Shown: positions 16,754 to 29,636, numbered from the stretch's first letter. The stretch: DNA of 45,455 bases from Bacteroidota bacterium (GCA_016195025.1 JACQAL010000058.1:1-45455); one strand, 5' to 3'. A program made the numbers and translations. The notes: generated by a model from the sequence alone, not told the origin.

Positions 16754-17593
16754 CTAAACTAACGCATACATGAGGACGGAAGACCTGACGGCAGTTAAAA
16801 ATAAGAAAAGGAAATTTATTCCTTTATTCCGCTGCTCGTATTTTTCAATTTCCCGTTTCATATATTTTATATACTGGCTGCACATAAAGTTTCTGAAAAT
16901 GTCTATATTGTTTTTTTCTCTTGAATCATTTAATGCTTTTATGTAAGCGGATTTGTCTTCAAGAAATACAATGGAGAGCGGTTTCTTATGTGCTGCCTGA
17001 ATATAATTCATCAACAGGCGGGCAGTGCGCCCGTTGCCGTCAAACCAGGGATGAATGCTCACTAAATAATAGTGCGCGTTAAACGAGAGTTCATATACTT
17101 CTTCATTCGTTTTTATTGAATTGATTTTGCTTTGCAGTTTTTGACAAAGTTCATTTACCATAGAAGGAACTTTATCGTAGTTCACAAAATAAGTTGTTCC
17201 TGCCGTAACATTGCCGAGCCGGAAGTCGCCTTTTGTATCATCGCACATTCCAAGCGGAGTGCTGCGCTGCTGCCCTGTGTTTTTATTCACGAGTGCGTTT
17301 ATCTGTTTCAGAAATTCAGGGGTAATCCCGATTCTGTTTTTTGCTTTGTCAAGGCAAAACAGCAATGCTCTGTAATGGTCTTTCACCATTTCATGTTCAC
17401 TCATTGATTTTCCCTTTGCAGTAATGCCTTCGGTTATGAGCAAAGTGGTTTCTTCGAGTGTGAGCGTGCTGCCTTCAATGGCGCTGCTGTGGTGCACAAT
17501 GGCAATGCGGTTGAACTGCTCAAAGTCAACAACTATATTTAGTTTGAGCGATTCAAACTTTTGAACCCATTTATTTAGTTCATCCCATTGCAT
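16754..17593 (-). CDS. Fic-family protein with N-terminal inhibitory motif
   Basis: 279 residues. The Fic motif HPWFDGNGRTAR has catalytic His and the complete anion-binding loop. An inhibitory helix motif SAIEG ((S/T)xxxE(G/N)) near residue 37 makes it a class II Fic: AMPylation would be restrained until the Glu is displaced. The target is unknown and no antitoxin gene is adjacent. The tail after NKGINFLF looks like read-on into downstream repeat-like DNA. The -7 box TAACTTTG (17598-17605) ends 4 nt before the ATG. Confidence 0.88.
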   Translation of the reverse strand: MQWDELNKWVQKFESLKLNIVVDFEQFNRIAIVHHSSAIEGSTLTLEETTLLITEGITAKGKSMSEHEMVKDHYRALLFCLDKAKNRIGITPEFLKQINALVNKNTGQQRSTPLGMCDDTKGDFRLGNVTAGTTYFVNYDKVPSMVNELCQKLQSKINSIKTNEEVYELSFNAHYYLVSIHPWFDGNGRTARLLMNYIQAAHKKPLSIVFLEDKSAYIKALNDSREKNNIDIFRNFMCSQYIKYMKREIEKYEQRNKGINFLFLFLTAVRSSVLMYALV

Positions 17594-17605: not shown

Positions 17606-17741
17606 ATTTGTTTAGAGATTGGAGAAGTCACAGACGCGCGCCACATTATGGGTTGAACACTATTCACAATAAAATTCATTTATAGCCATTTCAATTCTTA
17701 TTTCTTTTTTCCGTTCAGCAACCTTCCGATTACTTTATCTT

Positions 17742-17774
17742 CTAATTGTCACGATTGAAAGTAACTGTCTGTCC
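17742..17774 (-). pseudogene. Relic of a T9SS sorting domain (GQTVTFNRDN)
   Basis: The minus strand encodes GQTVTFNRDN then TAG. The intact sorting domain of the SBBP protein (23289-24980) has GQTITFNRDN at the matching place. The fragment lies just after the stop of the membrane protein at 17786-18190. Confidence 0.55.
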
Positions 17775-17785
17775 GCTGTGTTTCT

Positions 17786-18190
17786 TTATTTGTCAGTCTT
17801 AGAAATAAACCCCGCCCACGATTCGAGAGTAAGAAACACGCAGTGAAAAATAAGTCCTCCGGTGCGCATAAAAAGTCCACCCTCAATAGTCGGGAAAAAA
17901 TTCCAGTGGATAACATATACGATAAGAATCAGCGCATGAGCGGCAGCGCCAACGCGGTTCCATTTTCTCACATTTTCCTGGCGCGAACCCATCAGCAAAA
18001 CAACTCCGATGAGCGCAAACAGCGTGTATGCCTGAAACAAACCAACATGCCCCAATTTATCTGCCTGAAGAAATTTGAAAACACCAATGCCATTCATCAT
18101 TCCTATTGTTGAAGCGATGGCAAAACCTGTTCCGGCTGCCACGGCAATTGTACCATGAACTTTTAAGATTTTTTTTCGGATCAGTTCCAT
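17786..18190 (-). CDS. Four-TM membrane protein; start region duplicated
   Basis: 134 residues from the ATG at 18190, about four transmembrane helices, family not recognised. The first 58 bp of the gene are tandemly duplicated (18134-18249). The upstream copy keeps the original leader and ATG (18248) but, as 58 is not a multiple of three, it leads out of frame. Translation of the body must start at the downstream copy: ATG 18190, or ATG 18214 giving an 8-residue extension. Expression may thus be impaired. It ends KTDK, resembling sorting-domain ends nearby. Confidence 0.6.
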   Translation of the reverse strand: MELIRKKILKVHGTIAVAAGTGFAIASTIGMMNGIGVFKFLQADKLGHVGLFQAYTLFALIGVVLLMGSRQENVRKWNRVGAAAHALILIVYVIHWNFFPTIEGGLFMRTGGLIFHCVFLTLESWAGFISKTDK

Positions 18191-18249
18191 GGGCTGCCAC
18201 GGCAATTGTACCATGAACTTTTAAGATTTTTTTTCGGATCAGTTCCATG
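18134..18249. repeat. Perfect 58-bp tandem duplication
   Basis: Copies at 18134-18191 and 18192-18249, each from GGCTGCCACGGCAATTG to GTTCCATG, with no mismatch. It covers the start codon and first codons of the gene on the minus strand. Identity implies a recent event, or an assembly artefact. Confidence 0.95.
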
Positions 18250-18337
18250 AGTTTTATTTGATTAGTTACTTTTTGTTGTTTTCAAAGTTAAGAATAGTTT
18301 GTCTGGTCTGCCGAGCGCAACTGTCAAGCCGAGAAAA

Positions 18338-18424
18338 TTATTTGTCGGTGATTACTAATTTCTCCGTAACAACCTCACCCCCGCCCTCTCCTTGCAAAGG
18401 AGAGGGAGTTGTCAGCCGAGCGAA
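18338..18424 (-). pseudogene. T9SS sorting-domain relic interrupted by a palindromic insert
   Basis: The minus strand reads FARLT, then a stretch encoded by the palindrome at 18384-18406 (PSPLQGEGGGE), then EKLVITDK and TAA. The intact domain at 23289-24980 has FVRLT and DKLVITE in the same places. It follows the 150-residue gene. Confidence 0.6.
18384..18406. repeat. Perfect palindrome inside the sorting-domain relic
   Basis: CCCTCTCCTT, GCA, AAGGAGAGGG: a 10-bp stem with a 3-nt loop, in frame within the relic at 18338-18424. Confidence 0.85.
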
Positions 18425-18437
18425 ATTGTCGAAATCT

Positions 18438-18890
18438 TTATTTGCTATATTGCTCTGGTGTGACCTTTATATCAAATAAATATTTCCCGTCTTTGTCTTT
18501 ATAGTAATAAATTAAAGTGACTTTATTGTCTCGCATTATTTTATAGCTTGGATTTGATGTTGCTTGATTGATAATAGAAGGTTCATAGATTTTTTTAATT
18601 GCGTCTATATTTGAAATTCCTTTTTGAACATTAACTAAAGTATAATTCCACTGCATTTCATTATTTGGATAAGCAATGCAATCGTCCAAGCGAATATCTT
18701 TATTAACAGTGATTGGACAATCTTTGTTTAGCTTATTTGCTGATTCTAATAATTCCTCGTGAATTGCTGAAGTAGATTTTCCGCGAAAAAGCTGGACGAT
18801 GAGTATTATTCCTATTACTGCAAGTATTACAAAGAATTCTCTTTTTAGAAAATTTTTGATTGTCCATGGTTTTTTTTCAAGTGGATTCAT
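18438..18890 (-). CDS. Single-TM protein of unknown function
   Basis: 150 residues with one N-terminal transmembrane helix (about 17-36, FFVILAVIGIILIVQLF) and a polar outer domain with two cysteines (DCPIT, DDCIAY). I recognise no family. It sits between a start-module relic (18911-19024) and a sorting-domain relic (18338-18424), though it has neither module itself. Confidence 0.6.
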   Translation of the reverse strand: MNPLEKKPWTIKNFLKREFFVILAVIGIILIVQLFRGKSTSAIHEELLESANKLNKDCPITVNKDIRLDDCIAYPNNEMQWNYTLVNVQKGISNIDAIKKIYEPSIINQATSNPSYKIMRDNKVTLIYYYKDKDGKYLFDIKVTPEQYSK

Positions 18891-18910
18891 TTTAAATTTT
18901 ATTTATAAAG

Positions 18911-19024
18911 TTATTGTCGACCATGCGCAACTGTCAGCGAAAAATTGCCTGGGTGAAAACTGCCGTCATGGTTTTTGATTTTGGAGATGAGAATTGCTAT
19001 CGAGATGAGAAAAAGGTTTTTCAT
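18911..19024 (-). pseudogene. Orphan signal-peptide start module
   Basis: A 37-codon frame starts MKNLFLISIAILIS and ends LTVAHGRQ then TAA. The DNA from about 25 bp before the ATG to codon 9 is nearly identical to the start of the Kelch protein gene at 22307 (both have AAAAAATATTAAATGAAAAA and CTTTTTCTCATCTCGA). The ending also matches the signal-peptide ends LTVVHKQ and LTVAHSQ of nearby genes. It is a duplicated start without a body, or a tiny peptide gene. Confidence 0.6.
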
Positions 19025-19049
19025 TTAATATTTTTTAGTTAACGAAAAA

Positions 19050-22000
19050 TTACTGTATCATTATTTTTTTCGTTGCAGTTCCTTTTTCGGAATTTACTTT
19101 GATGAAATAAATGCCTTGGGGTTTGTTTGATAAATCAATAGTGAGATTCATCGCTCCGATCGGAATGACACGCAGTATCATTTTTTCTCCTATGAGATTT
19201 GAGATTTCAATGTTTGAAAGTTTCTCTGAACATTGAAGTGAAATTACTCCGCTTGTTGGGTTGGGAGAAATAGTAAAAAGCAATCCATCAGCATAATTTG
19301 TTTGACCGTTTGGATTTGAAAATGTAATATGAATGGTATCGCTGCCCCAGCATCCTACGCTATCGTAAACTTCTACAATATATGTTCCCGTATCCGTTAC
19401 AAAAATCGTCTGTGTATTGTCGCCTGTTGACCAGTAATATGTATTCCAAGGTCCGGGGTTTCCAGCATCAAGTATTATAGTATCACCCGGTGTTATTACC
19501 GTATCGTTACCGAGATTAACAAATGGACCAATTGTTAGAGTTTTTATTATTGTATCCACCCCGTCAACTATTAGCGTTACTGTATAATAGCCGGCAGAGT
19601 TAAAAATATGACATGCGTATAGTGAGCTGTCAATATTTGCAAAGCCAGAAGCGGTATCACCAAAATTCCAAACCCAATTTTGTCCGGGACAGGTAATTGG
19701 ATCAGGATAAAAGCAAACCGAACTCCATGTACAAGAATCACTATAAGTAAAATTAGTAATAGTTTGTCCGGAAATTATCAAGGTTTTTATTATTGTATCT
19801 GTTCCGTTCACTATGAAAGTAACTGTATAGTTGCCGGGTGTATTATAAAAATGGCTAGGGTAAAGTGTCGTGTCAATATTTGCCGGACCGGAAGCAGTGT
19901 CTCCAAAATTCCAAAGCCAACTTTCACCTGCACAAGCAGAGAAAACGGGATTAAACCAAACCTGACTTCCCACACAAGAGTCACTATAAGTAAAATCAGT
20001 AATGGTCTGACCTGAATTAATTGTGACAGTATTTATTATTGTATCTCCACCATTCATGATTAACATGACTGTATATGTTCCGGCAGAAGAAAAAGTATGC
20101 AAAGGTGTCCATGAAGTATCAGTATTTGCAGGACCGGAAGCAGGATCGCCAAAATTCCAAAGCGTATTTAGCGCAGGACAAGTAGGCCAAGTAAGAAGAT
20201 ATGGATAAAACTGAATTGGATTTCCTGTACAATAACCACTATAATAAAGACCATAATAATTAAAATTAGAGGCAGGAGGAATACCACTTGTTGTTACATA
20301 AGCCGAAGTTGAAGGAGAAACGCAGCCATTGGTTAGGTTAACTGCCACATTGAAGGAGCCATAAGTATTAACGGTTATACTTTGTGTTGTTGCCCCATTC
20401 GACCAAAGATAATTGCTTCCGGCAGTTGCAGTTAATATTACACTGTCACCAGGACAAATAATAGTTGTTCCGCTTGCAGAAATTCCTGCCTGACAGGTAT
20501 CTGTCCATTCCCAAAAATCTTTCAAATAACCTGCATAATTACCTGTTCCTATATATCCTTTATTTCCTATGGAAAACCCGACTGCTTGCCAACGTGCTAG
20601 TCCACAGAAGTTGGATATTTGTTTCCAAGTATCTGTTGCTTGGTTCCATTGCCACACATCCTGTTTTTCTCCGATTGAATCAACGCCTGTTCCTATATAT
20701 CCTTTTGTGCCGATAGAAAAACCTACAGCAAATCTTCTTTTCGTTCCTCCAAAGTTTGCCTTTTGCACCCAAACATTTGTTGCTTGTTCCCATTCCCAGA
20801 AATCATTGAAGAAAGTAGTACCGTTAAGTCCAGTTCCAATATATCCCTTGGTGCCGATTGAAAAGCCAACAGGATTTTGTCTTACTACGCCAAGAAAGTT
20901 TGCTTTTTGTGTCCAGGTATTGTAGGATGGGGAAGCCATGTCGCCATCCCACTCCCAAAAGTCACTTCTTAAAGAATCATCATCTAAGCCCGTTCCTATA
21001 TATCCTTTTTTACCTATGGAAAATCCAACAGCAAAATATCTTCCAGTTCCTCCAAAGTTGGCTTTCTGTGTCCACATATTTGATGCTTGATCCCATTCCC
21101 AAAAGTCATTCAAATTATTTGGAAATTTATATCCAGTACCTATATACCCTTTTTTTCCAATAGAAAATCCCACAGCATAACCTCTTCCTATTCCTGGAAA
21201 ATCTGCCTTTTGAGTCCATGTATCTGTTACTTGATCGTATTCCCAGAAATCATCTGGATTGCTGCCCGATGCAGTACCAATGTATCCTTTCAAACCAATA
21301 GAAAATCCAACAGCGCCATCTCTTGCATTTCCGCCAAAGTTTGTTTTTTTAATCCAGTCGCATGGAGGAGGAGGAGCCGGTGGATTCAATTCCCAGAAAT
21401 CCTGAAGAGAAAAACCTGATGAGTTATCATGTCCTGTGCCTATGAATCCTTTTGTGCCTATAGAAAAACCAACAGCATGGTCTCTTTTTGCAACAGATGC
21501 TATTTGCGTCCAGTTATCATATCCTGGATTGTATCGCCAACAATCGAACAATGAGGCGCCATTACTATTTGCTTCGCCAGTACATATTAATCCTGAATTT
21601 CCGATTGCAAAACCAACTGCATTTTTTCTTGATGTTCCGCCAAAGTTTGCTCTTTGTATCCATGTATCTGTAGTTTGATTCCATTCCCAAAACTGATTGC
21701 CATTATTTCCGGTTCCTATATACCCTTTTGTTCCGATAGAAAATCCAACTGCACCATAGGCAGCAACGCCACCGAAATTCGATTTTTGAATCCATATATC
21801 GCTTGCCTGATCCCATTCCCAAAAATCATTATATGTATTTGACAAATCTTCTCCAGTTCCGATGTATCCTTTTGTTCCGATAGAAAAACCTACGGCATAT
21901 TCGCGTGGCGCTCCTCCAAAATTAGATTTTTGCGTCCAAATATTTGTTGCCTGATTCCATTCCCAGAAATTATTTGTATATCCTGTTCCGTCATATCCTG

Positions 22001-22307
22001 TTCCAACATATCCTTTTGTACCTATGGAAAAGCCAACCGCCCCATAACTTCCGGTAACACTTAAACTGGCTTTTTGTGTCCATGAACCTGCAACTGTATC
22101 ATATTGCCACAAGTCGTTCATGAAATTTCCAAGGTCATCATTACCCATTCCAATATAACCTTTAGTTCCAATGGAAAAACCAACCGCACCCTGTCTCAAT
22201 CCTGCTCCATAAACCGCTTTCGGTGTCCATGTGCCTTGTGCTGTTGTCTGTTTGTGGACGACTGTTAAGAGGAGGGAAACTGTCGAGATGAGAAAAAGTT
22301 TTTTCAT
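19050..22307 (-). CDS. Large T9SS-secreted Kelch/PKD surface protein
   Basis: 1085 residues. The signal peptide (1-23, ending TTAQ) is followed by about thirteen Kelch-type repeats to about residue 620, each with a core like AVGFSIGTKGYIGTG and a FWEWDQAT strand. Several PKD-like repeats (WNFGDTASGPANID) follow to about 940, then a type A sorting domain from about 1010 (SPNPTSGVISLQC to KKIMIQ). It should be exported by Sec, then T9SS, and attached to the surface, perhaps for adhesion. Within the sorting domain residues near 1044-1053 (RVIPIGAM) are encoded by a dispersed repeat. Last of three genes in a row. Confidence 0.85.
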   Translation of the reverse strand: MKKLFLISTVSLLLTVVHKQTTAQGTWTPKAVYGAGLRQGAVGFSIGTKGYIGMGNDDLGNFMNDLWQYDTVAGSWTQKASLSVTGSYGAVGFSIGTKGYVGTGYDGTGYTNNFWEWNQATNIWTQKSNFGGAPREYAVGFSIGTKGYIGTGEDLSNTYNDFWEWDQASDIWIQKSNFGGVAAYGAVGFSIGTKGYIGTGNNGNQFWEWNQTTDTWIQRANFGGTSRKNAVGFAIGNSGLICTGEANSNGASLFDCWRYNPGYDNWTQIASVAKRDHAVGFSIGTKGFIGTGHDNSSGFSLQDFWELNPPAPPPPCDWIKKTNFGGNARDGAVGFSIGLKGYIGTASGSNPDDFWEYDQVTDTWTQKADFPGIGRGYAVGFSIGKKGYIGTGYKFPNNLNDFWEWDQASNMWTQKANFGGTGRYFAVGFSIGKKGYIGTGLDDDSLRSDFWEWDGDMASPSYNTWTQKANFLGVVRQNPVGFSIGTKGYIGTGLNGTTFFNDFWEWEQATNVWVQKANFGGTKRRFAVGFSIGTKGYIGTGVDSIGEKQDVWQWNQATDTWKQISNFCGLARWQAVGFSIGNKGYIGTGNYAGYLKDFWEWTDTCQAGISASGTTIICPGDSVILTATAGSNYLWSNGATTQSITVNTYGSFNVAVNLTNGCVSPSTSAYVTTSGIPPASNFNYYGLYYSGYCTGNPIQFYPYLLTWPTCPALNTLWNFGDPASGPANTDTSWTPLHTFSSAGTYTVMLIMNGGDTIINTVTINSGQTITDFTYSDSCVGSQVWFNPVFSACAGESWLWNFGDTASGPANIDTTLYPSHFYNTPGNYTVTFIVNGTDTIIKTLIISGQTITNFTYSDSCTWSSVCFYPDPITCPGQNWVWNFGDTASGFANIDSSLYACHIFNSAGYYTVTLIVDGVDTIIKTLTIGPFVNLGNDTVITPGDTIILDAGNPGPWNTYYWSTGDNTQTIFVTDTGTYIVEVYDSVGCWGSDTIHITFSNPNGQTNYADGLLFTISPNPTSGVISLQCSEKLSNIEISNLIGEKMILRVIPIGAMNLTIDLSNKPQGIYFIKVNSEKGTATKKIMIQ
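19147..19178. repeat. Dispersed repeat inserted in frame in the Kelch protein sorting domain
   Basis: The minus strand carries GTGTCATTCCGATCGGAGCG, which resembles the GTCATTCCGA repeat family also seen at 28881-28952. It adds roughly RVIPIGAM between GEK and LTIDLSNK. Confidence 0.5.
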
Positions 22308-22331
22308 TTAATATTTTTTAGTTTTCTTTTT

Positions 22332-23276
22332 TTACTGCGGTTTATATTCATACCAATCTTTTGATTTTCCTGCGCCTGCTCTTTGTCCCAATCCTCCGAA
22401 AATACGATTGCCAATTGTAATTGCTATTGCTCCTTTATTGCCGCTGAAAATTCTTCCGAATTCTGTTACCTCATTTATAGCGGGATCGTACTCAAATAAA
22501 TCTCGCGGAACTGTATTATCTCCGCATTCTCCGCCACCGAAATATGCTTTTCCTTTATATGTAAAGCAAAACTCTCCCCCGCATGTTTTGCCTTTATATT
22601 TTGTCTTTTCGCTCCATTGTCCAGAAACAATATCATAAGCATTAATAATTTTTTTTTCTGAATTTATAAAGTAAGCAATATTATCCGCTACAAAAATCTG
22701 CGAGCCGATTCCTTTTACATCAATTCCTGATTTCTTTGACCATGAATCAGCAGCTGGATCATATTCCCACACACCATAGTTTTCACGCTTGGTGAAAAAA
22801 TGTCCGAAGTCAAGTACGTAACCTTTTCCTCCGGCTGTGAATCCGTTTGAAGGATAACCTCTGGGAAAATTAGATTTTTTTGTCCATTTATTTGTTGTGG
22901 GGTCGTATTGCCAGAAATCTGTTAACTCATCTTCTTTTTTAGAATCGGAAGATTTACCCGTCCAACCTGCTATTACATATCCTTTTCCTTCCAGAGAAAA
23001 ACCAATACCGTTTCTATGCGCTAACGGCATATTTGCCTTCTGCGTCCATTTATCTTTTGCCGGGTCATATTCCCAAAAATCATTAGAAAGTTTCGAGCCG
23101 GAAAAAGAAGTTTGAGAAAGGTCGCCTGCACCTACGTAACCTTTATCTCCAATTGAAAAATAAATACATCCGCTTCTGCCTGAACCTGCAAAGTCCGCTT
23201 TAGGAATCCATGATTCATCATCCTTGGAAAAGAAACAACTGAAAATAAGAATGAGAAGAGAGTAATTTTTCTTCAT
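22332..23276 (-). CDS. Kelch-repeat lipoprotein-like protein
   Basis: 314 residues. The signal has a possible lipidation Cys (LIFSC near 14). About six Kelch blades follow (FWEYDPAKDKWTQKA, FWQYDPTTNKWTKKS, and so on), a complete single propeller. No sorting domain. It is 24 bp before the large Kelch gene and 12 bp after the SBBP gene, so all three are probably one operon. Confidence 0.8.
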   Translation of the reverse strand: MKKNYSLLILIFSCFFSKDDESWIPKADFAGSGRSGCIYFSIGDKGYVGAGDLSQTSFSGSKLSNDFWEYDPAKDKWTQKANMPLAHRNGIGFSLEGKGYVIAGWTGKSSDSKKEDELTDFWQYDPTTNKWTKKSNFPRGYPSNGFTAGGKGYVLDFGHFFTKRENYGVWEYDPAADSWSKKSGIDVKGIGSQIFVADNIAYFINSEKKIINAYDIVSGQWSEKTKYKGKTCGGEFCFTYKGKAYFGGGECGDNTVPRDLFEYDPAINEVTEFGRIFSGNKGAIAITIGNRIFGGLGQRAGAGKSKDWYEYKPQ

Positions 23277-23288
23277 GATATATTGATT

Positions 23289-24980
23289 TTATTCGGTTAT
23301 TACTAATTTGTCTACTGATATGGTTTTGTTTTCTTCTGTCAGCCGAACGAAATACAGTCCGCTTGCGAGATTGTCGCGGTTGAAAGTGATTGTCTGTCCA
23401 CGGAGATTTTTTATTTGCGCAACTGTCTGACCGAAACAGTTGTCCACCGTGAGAGTTGCGTTGTGTAAAAGATTGTCTGTCTGCAAAGTTGTCTGCGTGG
23501 AAAAAGGATTGGGAAAAATATTTATTGAATTATAAAAATAATTCTCCTCTATGCCTACGACTCCATTGAATTTGACAATAAAGATGTCATAAGTATTTCC
23601 AGTATTGTCTGCATTGGTTAAAGTAGTTGAGCCGAAAGTAATTGATGGGGCACTGAAAATACCTGTGGCGACAACATTTCCATTAGCATCGGCAGAACAA
23701 TTTAATCCTTCGTCCGTACCGTTTCCTCCTGTTCTTACAGCCCAAATAGCATTACCAAAGGAATCGTATTTTGCAAAATAAATATCCATACTACCTGCAC
23801 TAGTTATAGTATCTGTTCCAAAAGTAATAGTGCCAAGAAATTCTCCAGTTAAATAAATATTTCCGTTTTGGTCAGTGCAAATTCCATAACCCATACCTCC
23901 GCCACTGGTTTGCCATGCTTGTCCGCTTACTTTTGCCCAAAGAACATTTCCTGAAGAATTATATTTTGCAACGAAGGTTACGCCATTGTCAGTAATGAGT
24001 GAAATAGTATCTAATAATATAGTAGAACCTTGAAATTCTCCTGTTACATATATATTACCATTAATATCGCTTGTAATGCTATTGCCAAACTGAGAATATG
24101 ATGTATTGCCCGCTCTTTTTGCCCATAATGAATTACCTGCATTATCATATCCGGCAATAAAAAAATCAGTGTTGGTTGTAGAAGAAGCATTTAATGTTGT
24201 TGAGCCAAATGAAAGTGTAGTGCTACGGAATTCTCCGGTTATGTATACATTTCCATTATTGTCAGCAGTAACGCTATGGGCAAAATCATCACCATTTCCT
24301 CCATTACCTTTTGCCCATAGTGCATTTATTTGAGAATCAAATTTGGCAACGAAAACATCTTGCGTATTAGAATTTGCGCTGTTGATTGTATATGAACCAA
24401 AGGTAACTGAATTGCTCTCAAAATTTCCTGTTATATAAATATTACCATTGCCAGATACATAGATGCCATGAGCAGTCTCCCACCATGAACCGAAACTTTT
24501 TGCTATAAGAATATTGCCTTGAGAATCATATTTGACAATAAAAAGATTTGAAATACCATTTTTTGTTAGTGTGGTTGAACCAAAAGTAATTGAAGTGCTA
24601 TTGAAATTCCCCGTCACATATACATTACCGTTATTGTCAGTTGAAACACCTGCGCCTAAATCTCGTCCATTTCCGCTTGCGGATTTCGCCCAAAGTACAT
24701 TTCCATTCGCGTCATATTTTACAAGATAAAAATCACCATATCCCGAACTTGTATTTGTTAAAGTAATACTTCCAAAAGTTATTGAGGGGCTCGAAAATTC
24801 TCCTGTCACATATATATTTCCGCTATTATCTATCGCAGTTCCATAACCAGCATCCCAACCTTGTGTTTGTATTCCTCCTGCGCTTTTTGCCCAAAGACAA
24901 TTTAGTGATTGTGCATCTGTCTGCTTGTGCGCAGTTGTCAGCGCGAGAACTGCTGTCGAGATGAGTAAAACTTTTTTCAT
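23289..24980 (-). CDS. SBBP-repeat T9SS-secreted protein
   Basis: 563 residues. The signal peptide (about 1-23, ending TDAQ) precedes about eight beta-propeller repeats of the SBBP type (DNNGNVYVTGNF, LWAKSASGNG). The type A sorting domain starts near 485 (IFPNPFSTQTTLQTD) and ends DKLVITE. This domain is the best intact match for the relics at 17742, 18338 and 25031. First gene of the three-gene unit. Confidence 0.87.
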   Translation of the reverse strand: MKKVLLISTAVLALTTAHKQTDAQSLNCLWAKSAGGIQTQGWDAGYGTAIDNSGNIYVTGEFSSPSITFGSITLTNTSSGYGDFYLVKYDANGNVLWAKSASGNGRDLGAGVSTDNNGNVYVTGNFNSTSITFGSTTLTKNGISNLFIVKYDSQGNILIAKSFGSWWETAHGIYVSGNGNIYITGNFESNSVTFGSYTINSANSNTQDVFVAKFDSQINALWAKGNGGNGDDFAHSVTADNNGNVYITGEFRSTTLSFGSTTLNASSTTNTDFFIAGYDNAGNSLWAKRAGNTSYSQFGNSITSDINGNIYVTGEFQGSTILLDTISLITDNGVTFVAKYNSSGNVLWAKVSGQAWQTSGGGMGYGICTDQNGNIYLTGEFLGTITFGTDTITSAGSMDIYFAKYDSFGNAIWAVRTGGNGTDEGLNCSADANGNVVATGIFSAPSITFGSTTLTNADNTGNTYDIFIVKFNGVVGIEENYFYNSINIFPNPFSTQTTLQTDNLLHNATLTVDNCFGQTVAQIKNLRGQTITFNRDNLASGLYFVRLTEENKTISVDKLVITE

Positions 24981-25030
24981 TGTCTTTGAATACTGTAAAG
25001 ATAGAAAGTTGCTGTCAAACGTTGCATTGT

Positions 25031-25228
25031 TTATTTGTCCGCGATTACAAATTTGTCTACTGCGATTATTTTGCTGTCTTGTGTCAGCCGAACGAAGTAC
25101 AGTCCGCTTGCGAGATTGTCACGGGAGAAAACAACCGTCTGCCCGCTAATATTTTTTATTTGTTTTACTGTCTGCCCGAAACAGTTGTCCACAGTGAAAG
25201 TTGCGTTATAGAAAAGACTGTCTGTCTG
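25031..25228 (-). pseudogene. Headless T9SS sorting domain (65 codons), in frame behind the DoxX-like gene
   Basis: Reading on past the TAG of the gene at 25229-26404 in the same frame gives 65 codons from QTDSLFYNATFTVDN through LASGLYFVRLTQ to AVDKFVIADK and TAA. This is clearly homologous to the last 65 residues of the SBBP protein and keeps an open frame. It starts exactly at the QTD of that domain and lacks the NPF strand before it. Confidence 0.85.
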
Positions 25229-26404
25229 CTACCACCACCAACTATAATCTTTTATAGGAAGTTTTTTATAAATACTTTCTATTGAATCTTCTCCTTGCAG
25301 ACCTTTTAATAAAAGCGAACTATCTTTATCATTGTAAAAATAAGTACCCGTGAAATTATTAATGTGATTAGTTTTTGCAGAGTCCTGATAAATCGGATTA
25401 ATTTTAACAGAGTCATTTGCGGCATTTTCTCTATACAGCAATCCTGTTGCATTTGCTTCAACATTATTTTTATCTTTTAATGTATTCCAGTCATCCGATT
25501 CAATATATAGTTTTTTCCAATAATTATAATTTGTAACATCTAAATTCTGTAATACTGAATTTGTTTTTAATTCAGTAATTTGAAAAATTCCGCAAGAGAG
25601 TTTTTTATCTTTATTCATATTTATTTTTGTTTTGTGATAAATGCGGGTCGCCAAAGGATAAATTACACAAATCCAAAACAATATTTTTCCTGCTTTAAAT
25701 AATTTGTTTGTGAATTGATTTGAATCTATTGCACTTGTTTTCTCAGATAAAATGTTCCAGATAATTTTTAATTTGTCAGGATAAGAAATAATAATATATA
25801 TTGTCATTATAAAAATAAGTACAGATGTCAGCAATGTTGCGTACTGAAAATCATTAAAAGCATTTATCATTACTACATTTCCTGCGACAGGTATCATCAA
25901 AATTGCACCTAACAACATCGTTTTTCGAAACATTAATAAACAAGATGGTATTAATTCCATAAGAGATATTATCAATATCTGCCAATTTGATCTGCCATAG
26001 AAATAGCTCATGAGAGCCCACGGATTCGCCTCACGCATTGGCGCATCTAAATAATAATAGGATACATCCATTTGTTTGTGCGTAAGTTTTACAACTGCGT
26101 AAAAAAACATGATGTAAGCAGAAGTAAACCTGATTATATTAATAATAATATTTTTAAATATTTCTGCTTTTGGTGGATTTGTATGTTCCAGACTTTTCCA
26201 TTTGAATGAAATAATGAATGAAATAATTAAATATGAAATAGGAAATAGTATGCTTCCGATTCTGTCTTTATAAGCCCAATCTAAAGGCCAATCCATGAAA
26301 CCTATGAAGTTTCCCAGGAAATAACTTATTCCCAAAGGAAAAATGCAAGCCAATGCCAGAAAAATTCCTAAACATTTATAGAGGTAACTGGTTTGAGTTT
26401 TCAT
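25229..26404 (-). CDS. DoxX-like polytopic membrane protein
   Basis: 391 residues with about eight hydrophobic helices in the first 270 residues and a polar tail ending KDYSWWW. The segment around FFYAVVKLTHKQMD and the general layout resemble DoxX-like membrane proteins of Bacteroidota; this is a weak match and function is unknown. It has no signal peptide, yet is bracketed by a sorting-domain fragment directly downstream and a possible start-module relic upstream (26430-26460, CGACAGTACTCGCAAACAGA). Confidence 0.6.
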   Translation of the reverse strand: MKTQTSYLYKCLGIFLALACIFPLGISYFLGNFIGFMDWPLDWAYKDRIGSILFPISYLIISFIISFKWKSLEHTNPPKAEIFKNIIINIIRFTSAYIMFFYAVVKLTHKQMDVSYYYLDAPMREANPWALMSYFYGRSNWQILIISLMELIPSCLLMFRKTMLLGAILMIPVAGNVVMINAFNDFQYATLLTSVLIFIMTIYIIISYPDKLKIIWNILSEKTSAIDSNQFTNKLFKAGKILFWICVIYPLATRIYHKTKINMNKDKKLSCGIFQITELKTNSVLQNLDVTNYNYWKKLYIESDDWNTLKDKNNVEANATGLLYRENAANDSVKINPIYQDSAKTNHINNFTGTYFYNDKDSSLLLKGLQGEDSIESIYKKLPIKDYSWWW

Positions 26405-26483
26405 TCAAAATAATTTTGTTTTTATGGCAGTCAGTTTGTCTGTTTGCGAGTACTGTCGAGTGTTGTATTGTCTTTTTGTATTT

Positions 26484-26630
26484 GGGCATTATTGCCAACG
26501 TTCCGCGGGCATGCGAAGTGCGGGATTAAAAAGCACTTCACTGTCCGCGAGAACAAATATAATTAAATACTGAAAACATTTTTTCAAAATGTAAACCCGC
26601 ATTGCGCACGCCCGCTGTTAGGCACTGGGC
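26484..26630 (-). other. attC-like integron recombination site (candidate)
   Basis: A 147-bp imperfect palindrome. On the minus strand it starts with GCCTAAC (26617-26623, fits RYYYAAC) plus AGCGGGC and ends with GCCCGCGGAACGTTGGC, so both ends look like attC core sites; the arms pair through GCGGGC and TGCGGG. It lies 117 bp after the stop of the gene at 26747-27427, on the same strand, as in a gene cassette. The 3' core GTTGGCA departs from GTTRRRY and no integrase is present. Confidence 0.5.
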
Positions 26631-26746
26631 ATTTTGTCTACCGATGGCGGAACTGTCTACGGAGAAATAATTGTATTTAATTGCTTTTGTGTCTGCCGAG
26701 ATTTTTTGTATGCTGTCCATCGAGTGCGAAACTGTCGAGCGAAAAA

Positions 26747-27427
26747 CTACTTGCATAGAATTTTATAATTAAGTCCAAGTGCAAAGCCGTAATTTACAAT
26801 GTTTGGAAAAGTACTGTGATTAGGAAAGAGATGATGTGCAGCATCTACTTTTGTACTTAATATATTTTGAAGCAGTCTTGCCTCAACAAAAAAAGAAAAT
26901 TGTTTTGTAAATTGTTTTTCTAAACCTATTGCAGAAATTGTCCCGAAATTTATTTTTCTGTCTGCACTTGCATCTCGTATGAAGCCATTGCCTTGTTTGC
27001 TGTATCCGTCCAAAACACTTGTAGAGAATAAATAGTCGGTATAAAAACCTATTGAAAAATAAAAAAGTCTCGTGTCATACCGTAAACAAATTGGTAAACT
27101 AAGATTGTGATAACTGATAGGTAAAGTATAATATCTGCCGAAAGGAAATGCAGTGTCTGGAATGAAGTAAGAATTTTCATATACATTATTATAGTAATAT
27201 AGTCCGCTTTCTAAACTGAAGTTTGATTTTTTAATTCTGTCAATGATTTGAATGCCTCCGCTGTAAGCCGGATACATTTCAGGTGATATTGCTCTATCAC
27301 CACTTTTTTCAGAAATAAATTTTCCTCCTATTTTAAATTTATAATTGTCGGTAACGATGATTGTGTCCTGGGAGTGCGCAACTGTCAACCCGAAAACGAC
27401 TGTCGAGACGAGGAGAAGTTTTTTCAT
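26747..27427 (-). CDS. Outer-membrane beta-barrel-like protein, possible cassette gene
   Basis: 226 residues. The signal peptide (MKKLLLVSTVVFGLTVAHSQ) is almost the same, in DNA as well, as those of the genes at 22307 and 24980. The mature part alternates beta strands (FSLESGLYYYNN, FYFSIGFYTDYLF) and ends in LGLNYKILCK, like a small outer-membrane barrel. No function is evident. It is flanked by an attC-like palindrome downstream and a GTTAGGC core upstream (27500-27506). Confidence 0.65.
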   Translation of the reverse strand: MKKLLLVSTVVFGLTVAHSQDTIIVTDNYKFKIGGKFISEKSGDRAISPEMYPAYSGGIQIIDRIKKSNFSLESGLYYYNNVYENSYFIPDTAFPFGRYYTLPISYHNLSLPICLRYDTRLFYFSIGFYTDYLFSTSVLDGYSKQGNGFIRDASADRKINFGTISAIGLEKQFTKQFSFFVEARLLQNILSTKVDAAHHLFPNHSTFPNIVNYGFALGLNYKILCK

Positions 27428-27499
27428 TGTCTTTGTGAACGGTCAACCGAGGGAAAAATTGTCTGCCGATGCACTGCGTTGTCTGGTTTTTTGCCTTGT

Positions 27500-27506
27500 G
27501 CCTAAC
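27500..27506 (-). other. Single attC-type core (GTTAGGC)
   Basis: The minus strand reads GGAAGTTAGGCAC just upstream of the gene at 26747-27427. The other half of an attC is missing, possibly because of the element at 27585-27723. Taken with 26484-26630 it would delimit a cassette of about 1 kb. Confidence 0.35.
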
Positions 27507-27584
27507 TTCCGGCTTGCCACACCTCCAACCGATTGTAAATGTTTGTTTTCGTTTGCAAGTGTTTGTAAATGCAAATATATCAAT

Positions 27585-28224: not shown

Positions 28225-28457
28225 ATAAAATTGTTTGTAGGTTTCTGAAAAAATACAATTTCACGTGCTGAAATTTTTTACGATTAATCGTAAGCCGATT
28301 TTCTGTTCCTGATTATTTAATCGTTTACTATTGCCGCGTTTTAGAAACGATACCAGACAAAACAGAGTTTCAGAATGAAAACGAATAGGGGAGGCAGGCA
28401 ACAATGGGTTTTTCTCCCTTCGTATGCAGCAATAGAATGAGAGAGATAAAAGATAGA

Positions 28458-28835
28458 ATGAATACATTGAGAAACACATTCAGTACATTAAAAGACATAA
28501 TGAATGCATTGAGAGATACATTCAGTACATTAAAAGACACCATGAATGCATTGAGAAACACATTCAGTACATTAAAAGATAGAATGAATACATTGAGAGA
28601 TACATTTAGTACACAAAAAGACATAATGAATACATTGAGAGATACATTTAGTACACAAAAAGACATAATGAATACATTGAGAGATACATTTAGTACACAA
28701 AAAGTCATAATGAATGCATTGGGAAACACATTTAGTATACCAAAAGACACAATGAATGCATTGGGAAACACATTCAGTACACCAAAAGACACCATGAATG
28801 CATTGGGAGGCACATTCAGTAAACAAAATGCTGCA
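28458..28835 (+). repeat. Nine 42-bp tandem repeats encoding paired heptads
   Basis: An ATG begins each unit exactly every 42 bp (28458, 28500, 28542, 28584, 28626, 28668, 28710, 28752, 28794), with a partial tenth at 28836. Each unit encodes two heptads such as MNALRDT FSTLKDI, with hydrophobic residues at a and d, a coiled-coil pattern. The frame is open from ATG 28404 (one candidate start) and runs into the lipoprotein gene at 28956. The opposite strand is open as well, so the coding strand is not certain. Confidence 0.85.
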
Positions 28836-28880
28836 ATGAGCGCACCGAAAGTCATTTTTATAGGACGTACGCAAAACGGT

Positions 28881-28952
28881 GTCATTCCGAGCACATTCAC
28901 TTCGTTCAGTGTAAACTCCGCGAGGAGATTTCTCCCTATGGTCGAAATGACA
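28881..28952. repeat. Copy of the GTCATTCCGA/TCGAAATGAC palindromic repeat
   Basis: GTCATTCCGAGC at the left and GGAGATTTCTCCCTATGGTC with GAAATGAC at the right. The right half matches the 140-bp repeat at 36502 and 43536. It sits between the heptad array and the lipoprotein and keeps the frame open. Confidence 0.7.
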
Positions 28953-28955
28953 CAA

Positions 28956-29636
28956 ATGAAATTTATATTGTTGCCCGCTTCTCTTCTGTTCGCGGTTTTT
29001 ATTTTTACCGGCTGCGAAAAGCAGCCCATTGCTGATTTCACTTCTTCCAGTTATTATTACCATGCGGGAGAAACCATTCACTTGAAAAACACTTCGCTTG
29101 ATGCAGAGAGTTATAAATGGACAGCACCCGATGGAAACACCTACACCACGCAGGATTTGGATTACAACTCCGATGTGAACGATACCAGCAGCACCTTAAA
29201 ATTCACACTCGAAGTTTTTTCAAAGAAAGGAAAGAAGAGCAACTCCGTTACAAAGTCAGTTCAACTGAAGCAAGCCATTCTGCCGACAGATTTTTATTCG
29301 GTGGGCGGCACCGTATACAAGCCGAATGATAAGAGTTTGAATAAAAATTCCTTCTACTGGTGGATTGAGGCATCAATATCCACCTCCAATTCAGTATTCA
29401 TTGAGTTTAATGGAACCAATCCACCGGCAGCAGGAACTTATTCTGTGACTGATTACAGCCCAAGTCCTGGTCAGGCAGAAATACAAATAAAAGATGCAAC
29501 AGGTTATCATTATTCCAACACTGGAACTCTTACAGTAACGGTTCCGAGTGCCGGAATAGTGCGAGCAGTGTTTACTAATCTTCCTGATTATTATAATTCC
29601 AGCATTCTGCTTTCAGGAGATATAACCGTTCGCTAA
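28956..29636 (+). CDS. PKD-like lipoprotein of unknown function
   Basis: 226 residues from ATG 28956. The lipoprotein signal has Cys in FIFTGCEKQ, followed by an Ig/PKD-like domain (PIADFTSSSYYYHAGETIHL, then SYKWTAPDG). A longer frame from 28404 would place the heptad array in front of the lipoprotein signal, which seems unlikely as one secreted protein. The end overlaps the peroxidase gene by 4 bp (convergent). Confidence 0.72.
   Translation: MKFILLPASLLFAVFIFTGCEKQPIADFTSSSYYYHAGETIHLKNTSLDAESYKWTAPDGNTYTTQDLDYNSDVNDTSSTLKFTLEVFSKKGKKSNSVTKSVQLKQAILPTDFYSVGGTVYKPNDKSLNKNSFYWWIEASISTSNSVFIEFNGTNPPAAGTYSVTDYSPSPGQAEIQIKDATGYHYSNTGTLTVTVPSAGIVRAVFTNLPDYYNSSILLSGDITVR

Follow-up and report, generated by a model that had tools for sequence, protein, structure and literature searches.

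A probable eroded integron cassette array with shared secretion ends on unrelated payloads in a Bacteroidota genome

Introduction

The way in which genes enter integron cassettes is little understood. The cassettes themselves can be recognized by their ends, since the first bases of a cassette are complementary to the R'' box of its own attC site (the G^TTRRRY rule). The integrase IntI is usually defined by the possession of an additional, IntI-specific domain (PMC9668308). A survey of 2008 counted the Bacteroidetes/Chlorobi group among the integrase carriers (PMC2426708), and IntegronFinder 2.0 found one complete integron in Bacteroidetes, that of Salinibacter ruber M1 (PMC9024848). According to reviews, 10–30% of cassette proteins carry signal peptides (PMC8618304). 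A joint occurrence of type IX secretion system (T9SS) cargo and integron cassettes was not reported in any of the open-access papers found.

Here, we analyse a stretch of Bacteroidota DNA (the window), which spans contig C58 (45,455 nt) in full; the genome to which it belongs measures 3.5 Mb in 79 contigs and encodes at least 150 T9SS sorting domains. A first-pass annotation of the window had proposed that signal-peptide starts and sorting-domain ends recur around unrelated genes and serve as recombination handles by which the bodies of surface proteins are replaced. The locus is, in our judgement with good confidence, an eroded cassette array in which secretion ends shared in many copies are joined to unrelated payloads, the relics of such ends being leftovers of exchange.

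Materials and methods

The data basis is one draft assembly, whose array contigs end at repeats. That the host belongs to Bacteroidota is concluded from its T9SS tails and from the relatives detected. Relics were scored with DNA profiles of signal peptides and sorting domains from which all window copies had been excluded, and reversed array DNA and 100 dinucleotide-shuffled sequences totalling 1.19 Mb were scored alongside as controls. The best control reached 7.3 bits with the sorting-domain profile and 15.9 bits with the signal-peptide profile. An iterated sorting-domain profile drifted to GACA-rich DNA, and its weak partial matches were left out.

Results

attC sites and cassette boundaries

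The intergenic DNA at 26404–26760 of the window recurs in about 28 copies in the genome, mostly on contigs with sorting-domain copies and in a single orientation per contig. Alignment of 52 sites shows this repeat to be a ~130-nt hairpin with invariant AAC and GTT cores. In the main stem, 11 of 11 pairs show compensatory changes on both sides; stem covariation amounts to 0.517, as compared with 0.146 in shuffled and at most 0.094 in slid alignments, 96.3% of the alignment cells are paired, and two-sided changes number 185 versus 51.5 after shuffling. In 44 consecutive pairs of sites, the R'' box of the second site is complementary to the bases that follow the first over a mean of 8.7 nt; the corresponding values are 4.5 nt for ends belonging to one site and 4.47 nt for random pairs (maximum 5.5 in 5000). 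The same rule applies in other Bacteroidota (8.9 versus 4.05 nt, 53 pairs). By the boundary rule, which is what tells attC sites from other palindromes, the element is an attC site.

A palindromic repeat present in dozens of copies might also be a MITE or some other transposable repeat. This candidate was rejected on the boundary rule and must be regarded as extremely improbable, because the sites are in addition uniformly oriented, lie 0.5–2 kb apart with genes in between and are adjoined by an integrase gene in relatives; no transposon model predicts boundary rule, orientation, spacing and integrase jointly.

With a covariance model, 57 attC sites were detected in the genome; a single full site lies in the window. 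Of the 40 genomes of the class, host included, 30 gave matches. At least two co-oriented sites within ~4 kb are found on contigs C55, C35, C59, C10, C23, C19 and C66. Between the first cassette of the window and 17.7 kb the covariance search returned no further attC, and Rfam gave zero matches in window 17.5–27.6 kb. Throughout this region there are still cassette leaders and sorting domains as well as the strand-biased word GACA, all of which stop near 17.7 and 27.5 kb. We infer that window 17.7–27.5 kb is part of an eroded integron cassette array.

The GACA word has features of its own. In cassette flanks, the cassette-sense strand contains 28–33 copies of it per kb (TGTC, 1–2 per kb; background, ~2 per kb), with an excess at window 17700–27500 and in the arrays on C55, C59, C35, C10, C23 and C19, and its spacing peaks near 13–15, 17–19 and 35–37 nt. 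The bias is weaker in arrays of other families (6–8 versus ~1.3). As for the surroundings of the array, a gene for a Fic-domain protein (16754–17593) lies immediately past its edge, and an ORF at 28404–29636 contains a 42-nt tandem repeat (MNALRDTFSTQKD-like units), the opposite strand of which also reads as repeats.

Organization of the window

The features of the locus are listed in Table 1. The first cassette runs from the GTT at 27506 to the attC site at 26493–26625, with the 226-aa gene as its payload. At its upstream boundary, the bases behind the GTT of the remnant site correspond to the reverse-complemented R'' box of the following attC (GTTAGGCAC..), as the boundary rule demands.

Table 1. 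Features identified between 17.7 and 27.5 kb of the window
Feature	Position	Strand	Evidence or remark
attC-type right-end remnant (..GGCAAGCCGGAA then GTTAGGCACAAGGC)	27504..27525	-	upstream boundary of first cassette, array edge
Complete cassette, the sole one of the window, made up of leader, signal peptide, 226-aa protein and attC	26498..27505	-	boundary rule and attC
Start module: leader end and signal-peptide DNA (MKKLLLVSTVVFGLTVAHSQ)	27374..27446	-	67.8 bits, window-free profile
Gene for 226-aa protein, without sorting domain or Pfam match	26747..27427	-	
attC; GTT core 26497-26499, AAC core 26617-26619	26493..26625	-	covariance model, 137.5 bits
5' leader of next cassette (TTGGCAATAATGCCCAAATACAAAAAGACAAT..)	26405..26498	-	same leader behind attC on other contigs
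391-aa membrane-protein payload	25229..26404	-	no close relative in 60 genomes
End-module relic: sorting domain minus first ~20 residues, right behind stop codon of 391-aa gene	25032..25228	-	198 bits
Start module of 563-aa gene	24917..24999	-	67.1 bits
563-aa SBBP beta-propeller protein, array-type signal peptide, family sorting domain 23290-23519	23289..24980	-	
314-aa Kelch-repeat gene, without sorting domain	22332..23276	-	
Kelch/PKD protein of 1085 aa with generic sorting domain and array-type signal peptide (22245-22308, 41.4 bits); Kelch body 50-59% identical to genes with family sorting domain	19050..22307	-	
Orphan start module, two pieces: 18988-19025 (22.4 bits), 18919-18959 (16.1 bits)	18911..19025	-	
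150-aa one-TM payload, without Pfam match	18438..18890	-	
End-module relic: C-terminal 26 residues of a sorting domain, in frame (RLTTPSPLQGEGGGEVVTEKLVITDK), and 3' untranslated part	18310..18426	-	28.7 bits (18339-18426)
Small membrane-protein gene	17786..18248	-	exact 58-nt tandem duplication (18134-18249) shifts frame near start
End-module relic (SGQTVTFNRDN)	17745..17792	-	19.4 bits vs best control 7.3

The first-pass annotation had placed sorting-domain relics behind three genes, and these relics are real: with the window-free profile all three, the short ones included, score over every control, the longest match covering 25032–25229. Two lie where they had been located, while the third reaches ~18 nt farther. 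The longest relic also matches TIGR04183 (E=2.3e-6), and a search of the genome for copies, which the annotation had called for, yielded ~29 further matches to it. The three intact signal-peptide starts likewise exceed the best control; describing their DNA as near-identical was, however, an overstatement, identity ranging from 66 to 95% over 44 nt. As to the orphan start, the piece at 18988–19025 is clear, while that at 18919–18959 is marginal on its own. The start relic claimed ahead of the 391-aa gene did not survive scoring (best 8.1 bits, 26724–26750), the DNA in question being the 5' leader of a cassette just past attC. A further candidate start relic at 18310–18337 (20.3 bits) was rejected, as it corresponds to the 3' untranslated part that trails sorting domains elsewhere.

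The 563-aa and 1085-aa genes encode T9SS type A cargo: the sorting domains of both lie above the TIGR04183 cut-off (HMM), and the signal peptides were read off the sequence by eye rather than with a dedicated predictor. As had been asserted, the genes for the 391-aa, 150-aa and small membrane proteins are not such cargo; none of the three has an intact signal peptide fused to it, and the sorting-domain DNA sits beyond their stop codons. No match was obtained in a Pfam search of four payloads, the 226-aa, 391-aa and 150-aa proteins among them. In the case of the 391-aa protein this applies even at E 0.5, so that the label 'DoxX-like' is not confirmed; the protein has no relative in the contigs of its own genome, and its best match across 60 genomes shows 26% identity.

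Several sorting domains, namely those at window 18339–18426 and on C19, C3 and C60, carry close to their end an in-frame insertion of a dispersed palindromic repeat (CCCTCTCC..GGAGAGGGCGGGGGTGAGG), which is translated as PSPxxGEGGGEVFTGKLVITDK.

Shared ends on unrelated bodies

Eighteen sorting domains of the family represented in the window (family tails) show an amino acid identity of 0.75 and a synonymous-codon identity of 0.76, against 0.38 from codon usage, the corresponding values for other sorting domains at the same loci being 0.35 and 0.54. By their bodies, nineteen genes with family tails sort into 14 groups that show no BLAST similarity to one another; several kinds of signal peptide occur among these genes. 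Between related genes, synonymous identity is 0.81 in the tail, 0.74 in the signal peptide and 0.51 in the body (seven comparisons, covering two body families and six genes). It follows that the ends are of more recent origin than the bodies and undergo reassortment. For 34 of 41 tails the nearest neighbour resides in the same genome (p=0.0001). GACA word bias was considered as a cause of the homogenization and discarded: outside GACA-type words synonymous identity of the tails is unchanged at 0.75, and fourfold sites are homogenized as well.

An ordinary duplicated T9SS gene family, with ends held by selection, diverged bodies and pseudogenes for relics, might produce a similar picture. Sorting domains are indeed under selection, some of the bodies are related, and synonymous identity between genomes (0.65) is over background. 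However, the same genes are homogenized at synonymous sites in their tails and not in their bodies, fourfold and non-GACA sites included, and one tail DNA is common to the 14 unrelated body groups, which renders this explanation improbable. Kelch bodies that are 48–59% identical carry a family tail in a gene on C55 and in three genes of the sister genome G005, and a generic tail in the 1085-aa gene of the window and in one G005 gene; ends therefore pass from one body to another.

A pair of units within the genome illustrates the same point. Contig C19 terminates with an intact gene comprising signal peptide and sorting domain (402 aa). Over 235 nt, its last 26 codons, 3' part and next leader show 93% identity to window 18426–18192, and upstream of that flank the window has the 150-aa gene and the orphan signal peptide instead of the 402-aa gene. 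The two units thus have a common downstream flank and different payloads, which is the changed-payload pattern that had been proposed, in this case observed within a single genome, between two of its units; it should be borne in mind that C19 ends at this place and that the window carries a 58-nt tandem duplication at 18134–18249. Together with the single tail family on its 14 body groups, this pair bears out the earlier description of conserved ends, changing payloads and relics, payload change being known from paralogous units of one assembly and not as an event in progress.

The duplication may be genuine or an assembly error. More generally, an assembly or strain-mixture artefact could join cassettes of different strains and thereby create apparent relics, and the 79 contigs, the halt of C19 inside sequence common with the window, the 58-nt duplication and a 141-nt overlap of C23 and C37 would all fit. 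Such an artefact is nonetheless distinctly improbable, since the relics at 25031 and 17745 lie in continuous sequence clear of contig ends and the modular pattern is repeated on several contigs and in G005. Payload replacement within cassettes is supported, its enzyme and timing being what we infer.

Integrase genes in the host and its relatives

In the host assembly, XerC and XerD alone were found, and no integrase of the array-associated type. With 57 attC sites and no associated integrase the assembly corresponds to a CALIN, a gap being possible in a 79-contig draft. In relatives, an IntI-like tyrosine recombinase adjoins attC arrays. It is present in 21 of 40 genomes (tallied by hand from search output), and at least three attC sites occur in 18 of the 21 genomes with it versus 7 of the 19 without (Fisher p=0.003). 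Among 80 integrase loci of named genomes, 19 have attC matches, with the sites downstream and on the same strand in 17 of these 19 by hand count; none of the matches in the 80 loci falls in a locus labelled non-Bacteroidota.

The integrase of the relatives aligns to IntI4 (2A3V) on either side of residues 180–247 and nowhere within them; the IntI-specific domain is therefore absent from it. Against NCBIfam models it scores 184–216 bits, short of the integron cut-off of 265 (TIGR02249), and it fits NF040815 (XerA-like 'tyrosine recombinase/integron integrase') better than TIGR02249. None of the 40 genomes exceeds the TIGR02249 cut-off, and a complete integron with an adjacent IntI bearing the IntI-specific domain was not found. 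The enzyme is thus no IntI in the usual sense (PMC9668308), though it stands in IntI's position; its link to the arrays is one of association, and its function is putative. Loci L169 (G034 C6), L199 (Sphingobacteriales MAG), L160 (G025 C37) and L161 (G016 C18), in which the integrase is followed by a co-oriented attC array, are candidate complete integrons of a new type.

Discussion

The anatomy described above suggests how the locus may have arisen. Cassettes bounded by attC hairpins would be gained and moved by integrase recombination at these sites, their boundaries being visible in the DNA and the activity presumed. Many of the cassettes specify secreted proteins and are arranged as a leader with signal peptide, a payload, a type IX sorting domain, a 3' untranslated part and attC. 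Such ends, present in many copies in the one genome, would be kept similar by recombination and have been fused to unrelated payloads; exchange or deletion of a payload between two ends would leave fragments of signal peptide or sorting domain behind as relics, and most attC sites of the window stretch would have been lost afterwards. Homologous or microhomology recombination in the repeated ends is most likely behind the swap itself. An integrase is an unlikely agent, because the junctions fall within coding sequence and not at attC.

One may ask whether an integron is required at all, since the signal-peptide and sorting-domain DNA could themselves be the handles for body swapping. The ends are homogenized while bodies differ, and relics adjoin unrelated genes, as this would lead one to expect. 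Yet complete units are flanked by attC with exact cassette boundaries, many cassettes contain neither module, and the family tails are located at the ends of cassettes, immediately ahead of attC. We therefore hold it to be unlikely, although less so than to be dismissed lightly, that the ends act alone. The mobile unit is the attC cassette, of which the signal-peptide and sorting-domain DNA are parts. What the first-pass annotation had to say of handles is plausible inside cassettes, where the ends may recombine; the primary site, which that annotation had not recognized, would be the attC hairpin at cassette boundaries.

It is tempting to speculate, albeit tentatively, that a widespread Bacteroidota lineage of integrons with integrases devoid of the IntI domain exists, in which new payloads are dropped between a resident signal-peptide leader and a sorting-domain/attC end. 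If true, this would provide a direct route of cassette formation. In the array described here, the two ends of a cassette can be dated apart from its body, and since they turn out to be younger and shared, payload replacement can be put to the test by comparing strains. Both the attC family and its integrase are spread over Bacteroidota, as against the single complete integron of the RefSeq survey, and integron finders demanding the IntI-specific domain would miss the integrases of Bacteroidota arrays. Surface proteins in exchangeable cassettes would, finally, mean a changeable bacterial coat.

The locus resembles sedentary chromosomal integrons and CALINs in its attC cores, foldable hairpins, co-oriented cassettes of 0.5–2 kb and exact boundary rule, and CALINs also in that the host genome is without a detected integrase. 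It departs from sedentary chromosomal integrons in its Bacteroidota host and in the relatives' integrase, which lacks the IntI-specific domain; this integrase is codirectional with the array and located upstream of it. With IntI (TIGR02249; PDB 2A3V) the latter enzyme shares the catalytic core, the C-terminal ..IYTHV..SPLD end and the position next to attC arrays, whereas residues 180–247 remain unaligned and several of the relatives' integrases have an extra N-terminal region of ~100 residues. As with the T9SS type A sorting domain (TIGR04183/PF18962), the 563-aa and 1085-aa genes score above the cut-off and the 25031 relic matches TIGR04183; unlike that domain in general, the sub-family of the window is homogenized at the DNA level and is found on many unrelated payloads in integron cassettes.
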